This document shows positions 11,142 to 13,439 of a stretch of DNA of 64,000 bases, in pieces. Within the stretch, counting starts at the first letter, position 1. Each line of letters begins with the position of its first letter. Below the pieces are notes generated by a model. The model worked only from the letters and a program-made list of their open reading frames with translations, was not told where the DNA came from and did not search any database. Origin of the DNA: Acidobacteriota bacterium (GTDB lineage Bacteria; Acidobacteriota; Vicinamibacteria; Vicinamibacterales; UBA2999); NCBI GenBank assembly GCA_021730945.1, contig JAKFYH010000019.1:62001-126000 (forward strand), given 5' to 3'. The translations under genes and the position numbers were made by a program.

Positions 11142-11414
11142 CTATCGAATCTCAAAACCCGCATGCACGCCGGTGGGCTCGGTGCCGTCCACCAGCACGC
11201 GGTCGACCCGTGAGCGCGACGGCCCGCGCCGCAGGGTGCGCTCAAAGCGTTCGAGCGCGTCTGCCTCACCTTCGGCCACCGCCTCCACCGTGCCATCGGC
11301 ATGGTTGGTGACAAAGCCACTGAGACCCTCGCGCCGGGCCGCGTCCTGGGCAAAATAGCGGAATCCGACGCCCTGCACGTGCCCGCTCACCTGGAACCTC
11401 CGGGCCACGCGCAT
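11142..11414 (-). CDS. acyP: acylphosphatase
   Basis: Small (90 aa) hydrolase of acyl phosphates. Both catalytic residues are visible: R19 in the phosphate loop GHVQGVGFR and N37 in FVTN. It precedes apt on the same strand and probably shares its transcript. It is divergent from the riboswitch-controlled transporter. Confidence 0.94.
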   Translation of the reverse strand: MRVARRFQVSGHVQGVGFRYFAQDAARREGLSGFVTNHADGTVEAVAEGEADALERFERTLRRGPSRSRVDRVLVDGTEPTGVHAGFEIR

Positions 11415-11448
11415 CCCACCATTCTAGCTCAGCCCAGAGTCCCGCCGC

Positions 11449-11477
11449 TTGACGGGCTGGCATTCGAGGCGCATTAT
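11449..11477 (+). promoter_or_regulatory. putative sigma-70-type promoter for the riboswitch transcript
   Basis: TTGACG (11449-11454), a 17-nt spacer and CATTAT (11472-11477). The predicted start of transcription near 11484 coincides with the start of the aptamer. Confidence 0.5.
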
Positions 11478-11480
11478 CAA

Positions 11481-11604
11481 AGCTTGCCGAATCTGCCAGC
11501 CACTGGCAGAGCGGGGGACCCAAGAACTAGGGGCAAATCGCGCCGATGCGCGACAGGGATCACCACCCTTGAGCCCGACAGCTAACCTCGCAGGCGGAGT
11601 GGAG
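11481..11604 (+). ncRNA. c-di-AMP riboswitch (ydaO-yuaA type)
   Basis: The 5' leader of the transporter gene carries hallmark conserved segments of the ydaO-yuaA aptamer in order: GCCGAATC, GAGCGGGGGACCCA, AGGGGCAAATCGCG, and the 3' block GAGCCCGACAGCTAACCTCG followed by CAGGCGGAG. These are the parts that form the c-di-AMP pockets and pseudoknot in this class. The aptamer ends within a few nt of the GGAG (11601-11604) in front of the GTG at 11610. I see no separate terminator, so ligand binding may mask the ribosome site. c-di-AMP would be expected to turn the gene off, as for potassium uptake genes elsewhere. Confidence 0.9.
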
Positions 11605-11609
11605 ACTAC

Positions 11610-13439
11610 GTGTTTGGACCCCTGAAGCGGCTGGTCGTCGGCCGCCCGATCGCGACCTACCAGGCCGATCACCACCGGTTTGGCCTCTTCGGCGGACTCG
11701 CCGTTCTGTCATCTGATGCGCTGTCGTCGGTGGCGTATGCCACCGAAGAGGTGCTGCGCGTCCTGATGATTGGCGGGGTCGCCGCCCTCAGCCTGGGTCA
11801 GCCCATCAGCCTGCTGATTGCCACGCTGTTGCTGATCGTCGTCTTTTCCTATCGGCAGACCATCCACGCCTACCCGGGGGGCGGCGGCGCCTACATCGTG
11901 GCCCGCGACAACCTCGGCCCCAACTTCGGGCTGGCGGCCGCGGCTGCCCTGCTGATCGACTACACGCTGACGGTGGCCGTGAGTATTGCCGCCGGGGTCT
12001 CGGCCATCACCTCGGCCATCCCGGCGCTGCACGTGAACCGGGTGGTGCTCAGCCTCGGCTTCATCGGCATGCTGATGCTCGGCAACCTGCGCGGATTGCG
12101 GGAATCGACCAAGCTGTTCGGCGTGCCGGTCTATGCGTTTGTCGGCGTCATGATGGCGCTGATCGTTGCCGGCATCACGCAGGCGATGCTCGGGACAGTT
12201 ACGCCGGTCGTCACCGCTGATCCGCTCCACACCTTTGATACCGGTCCGATCACGTTGTTCGTGCTGCTCTCGGCGTTCGCCAACGGCTGCACCGCGATGA
12301 CGGGAGTCGAGGCGGTGTCGGACGGTGTCCCGGCCTTCAAGGATCCCCCGGCCCAGACGGCGACCCGCACACTCGGCCTGATGGCCGTTCTCGCCATCAC
12401 CATGTTCACCGGCATCAGCTACCTGGCGCACGCCTATCAGGTAGTGCCCAGCGAAACCGAGACGGTGGTCTCGCAGATTGCCCGCGGCGTGTTCGGCGGC
12501 CGCAACATCTTCTACTACACCGTTCAGGGCGCCACCATGCTGATCCTGGTGCTGGCGGCCAACACCGCGTTTGCCGACTTCCCGCGGCTGGCGTCGATCG
12601 TGGCGCGCGACCGCTTCATGCCGCGCCAGTTCATGAACCTGGGCGACAAGCTCGCCTTTTCGAACGGCATCGTGGCGCTCAGTGTCGCCGCCGGCGCGTT
12701 GTGCGTGGTATTCGGCGGTGATCCGCACGCCCTGATTCCGCTTTACATGATCGGTGTGTTTCTCTCGTTCACGCTGTCGCAATCCGGCATGTTTCTACGC
12801 GCCCGCCGGCTGCGCGAGCGGGGCTGGCGGGTGGCATCGTCGATTAGTGGGGTCGGCGCCGTTGTGACGTTCTGCGTCCTGATCGTGGTGGCGGTCACCA
12901 AGGGACCCGACGGCGCCTGGATCGTGGTGGTGCTGATTCCCTTCCTGTCCCTGGTCTTCAAGACGACGCGGAGCCACTACGACAGCGTGGCATCGCAATT
13001 GTCGCTGAGTGGCGTCGAGGTCGATACGACCCCGCGTGGCCACATCGTGATCGTGCCGATTGGCGGGGTGCACCGCGCGGTGATCGAGGCGCTGAATTAC
13101 GCCAGCTCCCTGAAGGCCGATGTGCGAGCCGTCTACGTGAACGTCAACCCCGAGTCGATGGCGTCTCTCAAGCGCGACTGGCCGCAGTGGGGTTCGCACG
13201 TGAAGCTGGTGGTGCTGCAGTCGCCCTACCGCTCGATGACCGAGCCACTGCTGGACTACATCGATCGCGTCGAGCGCGAGCACCCGGATGACTACATCAC
13301 GGTCGTGCTACCCGAGTTCGTGGTCAAGCACTGGTGGCACCACCTGCTGCATAACCAAAGCGCCTTCTCGCTCAAGGCCGCCCTGCTGTTCCGGGCGCGG
13401 GTCGTCACCACCTCGGTGCCCTTCCACCTGAAGCAGTGA
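11610..13439 (+). CDS. kimA: KimA-like high-affinity potassium transporter (APC superfamily)
   Basis: A 609-aa protein with about 12 membrane helices (residues 25-435) and a cytosolic C-terminal alpha/beta domain (about 450-605). It has the size and layout of Bacillus KimA (YdaO), a proton-coupled K+ importer. The N-terminal FGGLAVLSSDALSSVAYATEE and AYPGGGGAYIVARDNLG are typical of this branch rather than of ordinary amino acid permeases. The tail resembles a universal-stress-like domain (GHIVIVPIGGVHRAVIEALNYA). Location directly behind a c-di-AMP riboswitch strongly supports a potassium role; KimA itself is known to be inhibited by c-di-AMP. Start is GTG at 11610 with GGAG 5 nt upstream. 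Confidence 0.87.
   Translation: MFGPLKRLVVGRPIATYQADHHRFGLFGGLAVLSSDALSSVAYATEEVLRVLMIGGVAALSLGQPISLLIATLLLIVVFSYRQTIHAYPGGGGAYIVARDNLGPNFGLAAAAALLIDYTLTVAVSIAAGVSAITSAIPALHVNRVVLSLGFIGMLMLGNLRGLRESTKLFGVPVYAFVGVMMALIVAGITQAMLGTVTPVVTADPLHTFDTGPITLFVLLSAFANGCTAMTGVEAVSDGVPAFKDPPAQTATRTLGLMAVLAITMFTGISYLAHAYQVVPSETETVVSQIARGVFGGRNIFYYTVQGATMLILVLAANTAFADFPRLASIVARDRFMPRQFMNLGDKLAFSNGIVALSVAAGALCVVFGGDPHALIPLYMIGVFLSFTLSQSGMFLRARRLRERGWRVASSISGVGAVVTFCVLIVVAVTKGPDGAWIVVVLIPFLSLVFKTTRSHYDSVASQLSLSGVEVDTTPRGHIVIVPIGGVHRAVIEALNYASSLKADVRAVYVNVNPESMASLKRDWPQWGSHVKLVVLQSPYRSMTEPLLDYIDRVEREHPDDYITVVLPEFVVKHWWHHLLHNQSAFSLKAALLFRARVVTTSVPFHLKQ

Follow-up and report, generated by a model that had tools for sequence, protein, structure and literature searches.

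The riboswitch closest to the element described here is that of ydaO/kimA in Bacillus subtilis, with which it shares the aptamer family (RF00379) and an orthologous target, kimA; like it, our element is probably an OFF switch. According to the part of PMC9960051 available, the B. subtilis switch is terminator-based, whereas in our locus no terminator was found and the Shine-Dalgarno (SD) sequence lies in a pseudoknot strand. The kdpFABC riboswitch of Bacillus thuringiensis places the same aptamer class over K+ uptake, as the accessible text of PMC6488665 describes; it is terminator-based and serves a transporter other than our kimA.

A translational c-di-AMP riboswitch has been reported from Corynebacterium. 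Like our locus, nlpC of C. glutamicum has no canonical terminator and is likely translational, and by the account of PMC9960051 itself, as far as its available sections go, it is the first translational c-di-AMP riboswitch shown. Its authors speculate there on base pairing between a CTCC in the riboswitch and the GGAG in the ribosome-binding site (RBS), and SD docking has been suggested in print; those sections contain no comparative evidence for this pairing. The nlpC switch differs from ours in controlling a cell-wall peptidase gene and in belonging to another phylum. In the docking switches preQ1-III and cobalamin env8, as we propose for our locus, an aptamer loop pairs with the RBS segment and represses translation, and the accessible part of PMC10907184 names ydaO among the docking riboswitches that bind an RBS-bearing segment in the ligand-bound state. 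What sets our locus apart from preQ1-III and env8 is that the 3' strand of the general ydaO pseudoknot, 2 nt from P1, itself forms the RBS strand, so that hardly a separate expression platform is left. A literature search, with many subscription papers (including those on discovery and structure) outside its reach, returned no paper on c-di-AMP riboswitches in Acidobacteria and no comparative evidence for SD docking of c-di-AMP riboswitches. The element described here belongs to RF00379 and has a variant platform; it is ordinary in its identity and moderately new in its mechanism.

We searched the window (the whole 64-kb stretch of DNA analysed) with cmscan. RF00379 matched at 11475-11611 on the plus strand over model positions 1-134 of 134, with 76.8 bits against a gathering threshold of 38 (E 4.4e-16); the other gathering-level Rfam matches in the window were two tRNAs only. 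The 3' end of this whole aptamer covers the first two bases of the kimA start codon, and GGGGCAAAUC stands in the window where the model has GGGGUGAAUC. A consensus scan found one sigma-70-like site of the form TTGACG-17-CATTAT, compared with 0.1 expected in shuffled sequence. The features of the leader and its gene are as follows.

11449-11477, plus strand: promoter-like site from the consensus scan, with -35 TTGACG (11449-11454), a 17-nt spacer and -10 CATTAT (11472-11477)
11475-11611, plus strand: c-di-AMP (ydaO/yuaA) riboswitch aptamer, RF00379, whole model, 76.8 bits
11485-11488, plus strand: P1 5' strand, partner 11593-11596, from the structure line of the covariance model
11559-11566, plus strand: apical loop AUCACCAC of the last hairpin, whose stem pairs 11555-11558 with 11567-11570, from the covariance-model structure
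11560-11566, plus strand: proposed docking strand within the loop of the last hairpin, from covariation across relatives
11593-11596, plus strand: P1 3' strand, partner 11485-11488, from the structure line of the covariance model
11599-11605, plus strand: predicted pseudoknot 3' strand GUGGAGA, from group covariation, the window member itself being weak
11601-11604, plus strand: SD GGAG, inside the pseudoknot 3' strand and 5 nt before the start codon
11610-13439, plus strand: kimA, encoding a KimA-type K+ transporter (APC superfamily, KUP-like) with a cytosolic tail; GTG start, 609 aa, full-length match to 6s3k

The initial annotation had placed a ydaO-yuaA aptamer in the 5' leader, directly behind a promoter and ending beside the ribosome site, and had let the idea stand or fall with a significant covariance-model score. 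The score obtained bears out the aptamer, a promoter-like site lies at 11449-11477, and the SD turned out to be part of the 3' strand of the aptamer's own pseudoknot. Its starting coordinate of 11449 holds for the -35 box; the aptamer itself starts at 11475. The KimA layout with cytosolic tail that it read downstream was recovered from end to end. Residues 1-608 of the window protein aligned with residues 1-606 of B. subtilis KimA (PDB 6s3k; E 2.9e-158), with 268 of 604 aligned residues identical (44%), so that the homology of the 609-aa protein is full-length and includes the tail. Because the alignment begins at residue 1 of both proteins, the GTG start at 11610 is well fixed. Pfam assigned AA_permease_2 to the protein, and its sole NCBIfam match was a permease model far under the cut-off.

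We then mapped the contacts reported for B. subtilis KimA in the available part of PMC10284832 onto the window protein through the 6s3k alignment. All four K+ ligands were identical, as was R337. The nine c-di-AMP-contact residues examined were all kept, and the pocket residues V457, L461, P479, V506, H579, N580, Q581 and S582 were identical at eight of eight positions. N237 was replaced by D, and four of the five residues of the cooperativity network differed, with only F568 kept. As judged from these residues, direct control of the KimA protein by c-di-AMP is plausible. Of 43 further acidobacterial KimA proteins, 37 keep the HNQ motif and 29 the R337 equivalent; the 29 comprise 20 of 23 proteins from genomes with a DAC match and 9 of 20 from genomes without (counted by eye). 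Across these 43 proteins the KimA residues split lineages with a DAC match from those without one only partly. In families f33 and f19, many genomes without a DAC match carry KimA-like proteins that are 38-47% identical (for example L118-L120 and L267-L281); these mostly keep the HNQ motif of the pocket, and their R337 equivalent is often replaced.

A single DAC domain match was found in the genome (4.73 Mb in 67 contigs, 100% complete). The 272-aa protein that contains it scores 242.1 bits with the NCBIfam model TIGR00159 (CdaA), above the cut-off of 188.8, and also has a CdaA_N domain. The diadenylate cyclase on whose presence the initial annotation had staked its prediction is thus found, and it is of the CdaA type. 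A YbbR-domain gene, CdaR-like, follows the cyclase gene, and the open reading frame before it resembles folP by eye. A PgpH-type domain (PF07698) was searched for in the genome and not found. DHHA1 gave four matches, one of which, below the cut-off and outside the window at C3:180108, shares its frame with a DHH domain; by its domains this protein is a candidate phosphodiesterase only. The genome contains a second RF00379 aptamer (62.4 bits, contig C22), which lies before a second kimA whose product is 62% identical to the window KimA.

To place the leader among its relatives, we surveyed genes and platforms behind 100 aptamers, taken with their flanks from the phylum and family lists; the window's class was defined as the genomes labelled with the same genus, family, order or class and comprised 30 aptamers. 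A start codon 28-33 nt after the conserved GCUAAC anchor, an arrangement that we call flush, was found for 25 of these 30. Outside the class, a gene was assigned to 41 aptamers, of which one (G231) had a flush start; a further 29 had no assigned gene. The rule used to pick start codons gives preference to a good SD and made 24 leaders of the class flush; G333, with an in-frame GTG upstream, was added by hand, and the TTG start of G153, at 39 nt, was regarded as spurious. G231 and the 25 leaders of the class together gave 26 flush leaders, in which the P1 GGC is separated from the start codon by 13-18 nt (14 nt in the window). Their start codons were GTG in 22, TTG in 2 and ATG in 2, and a weak start codon may be part of the design. 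A -10-like box (3-5 of 6 matches) ended 7-13 nt before P1 in 21 of the 26 and was missing in 3, a count made without a shuffled control. With a -10 box near P1 and a flush start, transcripts would therefore carry little upstream of the gene apart from the aptamer.

No terminator-like site was found in 11200-11900, where shuffled sequence gave 0.3, and no intrinsic terminator of the kind seen in terminator-type ydaO leaders lies between aptamer and start codon; with only 14 nt from the P1 GGC to the GTG, there is no room for one. A second scan across the leaders was noisy, with 20 of 100 shuffled stretches positive, and served only for the contrast with non-flush leaders: among non-flush leaders it was positive in 46 of 69 outside the class and in 2 of 5 within it, and among flush leaders in 9 of 25, there inside the coding region. 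In G355, a genome of the same order, strong terminator hairpins accompany both aptamers and the start codons lie far off. The initial annotation had noted no obvious terminator and guessed at translational control; the first point agrees with our scan of the window, and the guess gains support from the absence of a terminator, from the position of the start codon and from the loop-SD covariation described below.

The last hairpin carries a loop complementary to the SD. In the window, the proposed pairs are 11566-11599, 11565-11600, 11564-11601, 11563-11602, 11561-11604 and 11560-11605, with an A.A mismatch at 11562/11603. Across the 26 flush leaders, which formed the docking set, the loop-SD energy of true partners averaged -11.4 kcal/mol compared with -9.4 for permuted partners, and 0 of 100,000 permutations were as low. 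For covariation we used an alignment (A2) whose pieces were registered by rule, six rows of the prior alignment having had the SD out of register; in A2 the row G107_C206 is still one column off in the loop. As the choice of register favours pairing, the controls were shuffles, slides by one column and the register-free energy permutations. For a pseudoknot of 7 pairs, 90.1% of cells were paired, compared with 82.0% in shuffles and 53-54% after sliding by one column. Double-change cells numbered 19 compared with 2.6 expected in shuffles, and are not independent events, since relatives share them; they were spread over 4 of the 7 pairs compared with 1.8 expected. Further pair types were not in excess (9 compared with 7.8 expected; 141 of 500 shuffles as high). 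Examples of double changes are those from UUGG/CCAA to UCGG/CCGA (APC group) and to GUGG/CCAC (the window and G277, its sister within the genus).

Conserved loop-SD pairing with covariation was thus found for the group of 26, and it is weaker for the window taken alone. The docking helix of the window consists of 4 bp, the A.A mismatch and 2 bp; at -7.1 kcal/mol it is the weakest of the 26, and 8 other loops fit the window's SD better than its own loop does, which places the latter 9th of 26. Docking helices of 7-8 bp occur in KUP-type leaders. The mismatch is common to the window and G277. In cobalamin riboswitches, as the accessible text of PMC10907184 has it, a bulge in the docking helix makes docking ligand-dependent, and by analogy the mismatch would fit this principle.

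The pseudoknot itself is general. Seventy-one aptamers outside the flush set also prefer their own tail (0 of 20,000 permutations; 3 of 74 loci without the expected anchor were left out). The crystallised ydaO RNA in the available part of PMC5393176 has CUCCUUCG in the corresponding loop and CGAAGGAG in the corresponding tail; these strands appear complementary in our own reading, and a stable pseudoknot is spoken of there for the ydaO RNA. What distinguishes the flush leaders is that the tail strand of the pseudoknot now serves as the SD and is followed within a few nucleotides by the start codon. Nested folding, run both with the aptamer imposed and without it, gave no sign of SD sequestration; the SD was in fact more unpaired with the aptamer imposed (0.76-0.95, compared with 0.54-0.75). 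We did not take this result as decisive, because such models cannot represent a pseudoknot. We also dropped the idea that the SD is hidden by an extension of P1 alone, as the extension varies between relatives by eye.

The aptamer match, the identity of the gene, the cyclase, the leader geometry and the loop-SD covariation across relatives were observed directly, and we consider it likely that the window leader is a translational c-di-AMP OFF switch that docks the kimA SD into the aptamer. From these observations we infer ligand binding, ligand-dependent docking, the direction of control, a transcription start at the foot of P1 and control at the protein level. Transcription would begin at the foot of P1, so the riboswitch would make up practically the whole 5' leader of kimA. 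When K+ is plentiful, c-di-AMP would be high, as it is in Firmicutes, and would stabilise the aptamer together with the pseudoknot between loop 11560-11566 and the P1 3' flank 11599-11605. Because this flank doubles as the kimA SD, the 30S subunit could not bind and no KimA would be made. A fall in c-di-AMP would free the SD strand and allow KimA synthesis, and c-di-AMP would probably also inhibit the finished KimA through its cytosolic tail. Such a switch would extend c-di-AMP control of potassium uptake, so far mainly Gram-positive, to a Gram-negative phylum common in soil, and would offer a covariation-backed mechanism at the level of base pairs for a translational c-di-AMP riboswitch, a question that nlpC left open in the available part of PMC9960051.

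The same leader might act without any loop-SD helix. A P1 closed by the ligand and a compact aptamer, ending a few nucleotides ahead of an unpaired SD, could block the 30S subunit by steric occlusion alone, for which the 13-18 nt between P1 GGC and start codon in all 26 flush leaders and the weak helix of the window would speak; a preQ1-I switch, cited in the accessible part of PMC10907184, represses with its RBS up to 10 nt away. Steric blocking would have no need of the covariation between loop and SD that runs through the group, and we regard it as unlikely to be the whole explanation. Control of transcription, by Rho-dependent or unrecognised termination as in other class members, would agree with the characterised kimA and kdp riboswitches, which use termination according to the available parts of PMC6488665 and PMC9960051, and with the strong hairpins behind both G355 aptamers. 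The empty terminator scan of 11200-11900 and the 14 nt from P1 GGC to start codon, too short for a terminator, make this reading quite improbable, although Rho may secondarily remove untranslated mRNA.

Two further readings change the sense of the switch or deny it. In the first, the 3' strand of P3 (CCUC, 11586-11589) would pair with the SD in the ligand-free state, and ligand would form P3 and free the SD. CCUC is indeed complementary to GAGG, and nested folding left the SD more unpaired under the imposed aptamer, but where relatives alternate between CCUC and CCCC, the SD shows no corresponding change (alignment, by eye), and for this we rejected the pairing; such an ON switch would also raise K+ import at high c-di-AMP, contrary to the characterised members, and is very improbable. 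The second, a relic aptamer that no longer responds to c-di-AMP or that binds another ligand, would account for GGGGCAAAUC in place of the model's GGGGUGAAUC. It is hardly credible in view of the high model score and intact core blocks, the cyclase in the genome, the second aptamer copy before a second kimA and the loop-SD covariation throughout the group.

We next considered the distribution of the aptamer. RF00379 matched in at least 67 of 396 genomes sampled across the phylum and, within the family, in at least 14 of 43 genomes at E <= 0.001, 13 of these 14 exceeding the family cut-off; both counts are lower bounds, first-look candidates having been scored in part. A DAC match was present in 306 of the same 396 genomes. 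It accompanied 65 of the 67 aptamer genomes compared with 241 of the 329 others (Fisher p 2e-6, kinship ignored and the lists compared by eye). The two aptamer genomes without a DAC match were G277 (98% complete) and G226 (77% complete). G277, the sister species of the genus, has two tandem kimA genes behind one aptamer (L110, G277:C90:500-6500), yet no DAC match.

Behind the 30 aptamers of the class we found 12 KUP-family genes, 8 kimA, 6 genes for a 740-aa APC-type transporter and 4 SPFH/Band_7 genes. The predicted c-di-AMP regulon of the class would be small, with KimA and KUP, a so far uncharacterised transporter of the APC type, and SPFH proteins. The SPFH/Band_7 proteins behind flush aptamers (L042, L101, L077 and L084; 4 of 30) are not potassium transporters.

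We also looked for the P1-SD-start pattern in public genomes and obtained at least 119 matches in at least 118 stretches. Among the 119 matches listed, 60 open a reading frame of at least 100 codons and 46 one of fewer than 40; record titles were given for 80 of the 118 listed stretches. By eye, and among the matches listed, convincing N-termini are those of KUP-like or APC-like proteins in records of Gemmatimonadetes and of candidate division FCPU426, as well as those of small secreted, Rpf-like proteins in Actinobacteria records. Matches in Nitrospirae records resemble, by eye, leaders of the terminator type in which an in-frame ATG occurs by chance. The matches show that the arrangement recurs and say nothing on how often. 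In 24 matches not titled Acidobacteria, the own loop beat permuted loops for the own SD region (2 of 20,000); this subset was picked by record title, one record being titled only 'bacterium', and 4 of 60 rows were left out. The permutation result is a test of the pseudoknot and leaves aside whether it serves as an SD.

A wider reading, which we offer tentatively and with somewhat more doubt than belief, is that the ydaO pseudoknot strand is a ready-made SD, and that a nearby start codon would suffice to make the aptamer a complete translational OFF switch without a platform of its own. This arrangement may have arisen in potassium and SPFH genes of the Vicinamibacterales type and, apparently separately, in Actinobacteria, FCPU426 and Gemmatimonadetes; translational c-di-AMP riboswitches might then be widespread and overlooked, and exchange readily with the terminator type.

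The surroundings of some other aptamers deserve mention. On contig C22, the second kimA has lost its stop codon, and a 986-aa open reading frame (L004:8052-11012) joins KimA to a beta-barrel porin, with AA_permease_2 at 32-437, BBP2 at 648-984 and a signal-peptide-like stretch between; it may be a true fusion, a case of internal initiation or an assembly error. Divergent from this aptamer-kimA pair, on the minus strand, lies a DUF4118-HisKA-HATPase histidine kinase (L003:429-1751), whose top NCBIfam match is KdpD, far under the cut-off. In family f31, aptamers precede genes for FAD/NAD-binding oxidoreductase-like and D-Ala-D-Ala ligase-like proteins (named by eye), with start codons about 60-300 nt past the anchor (for example L022, L025, L061, L087 and L091).
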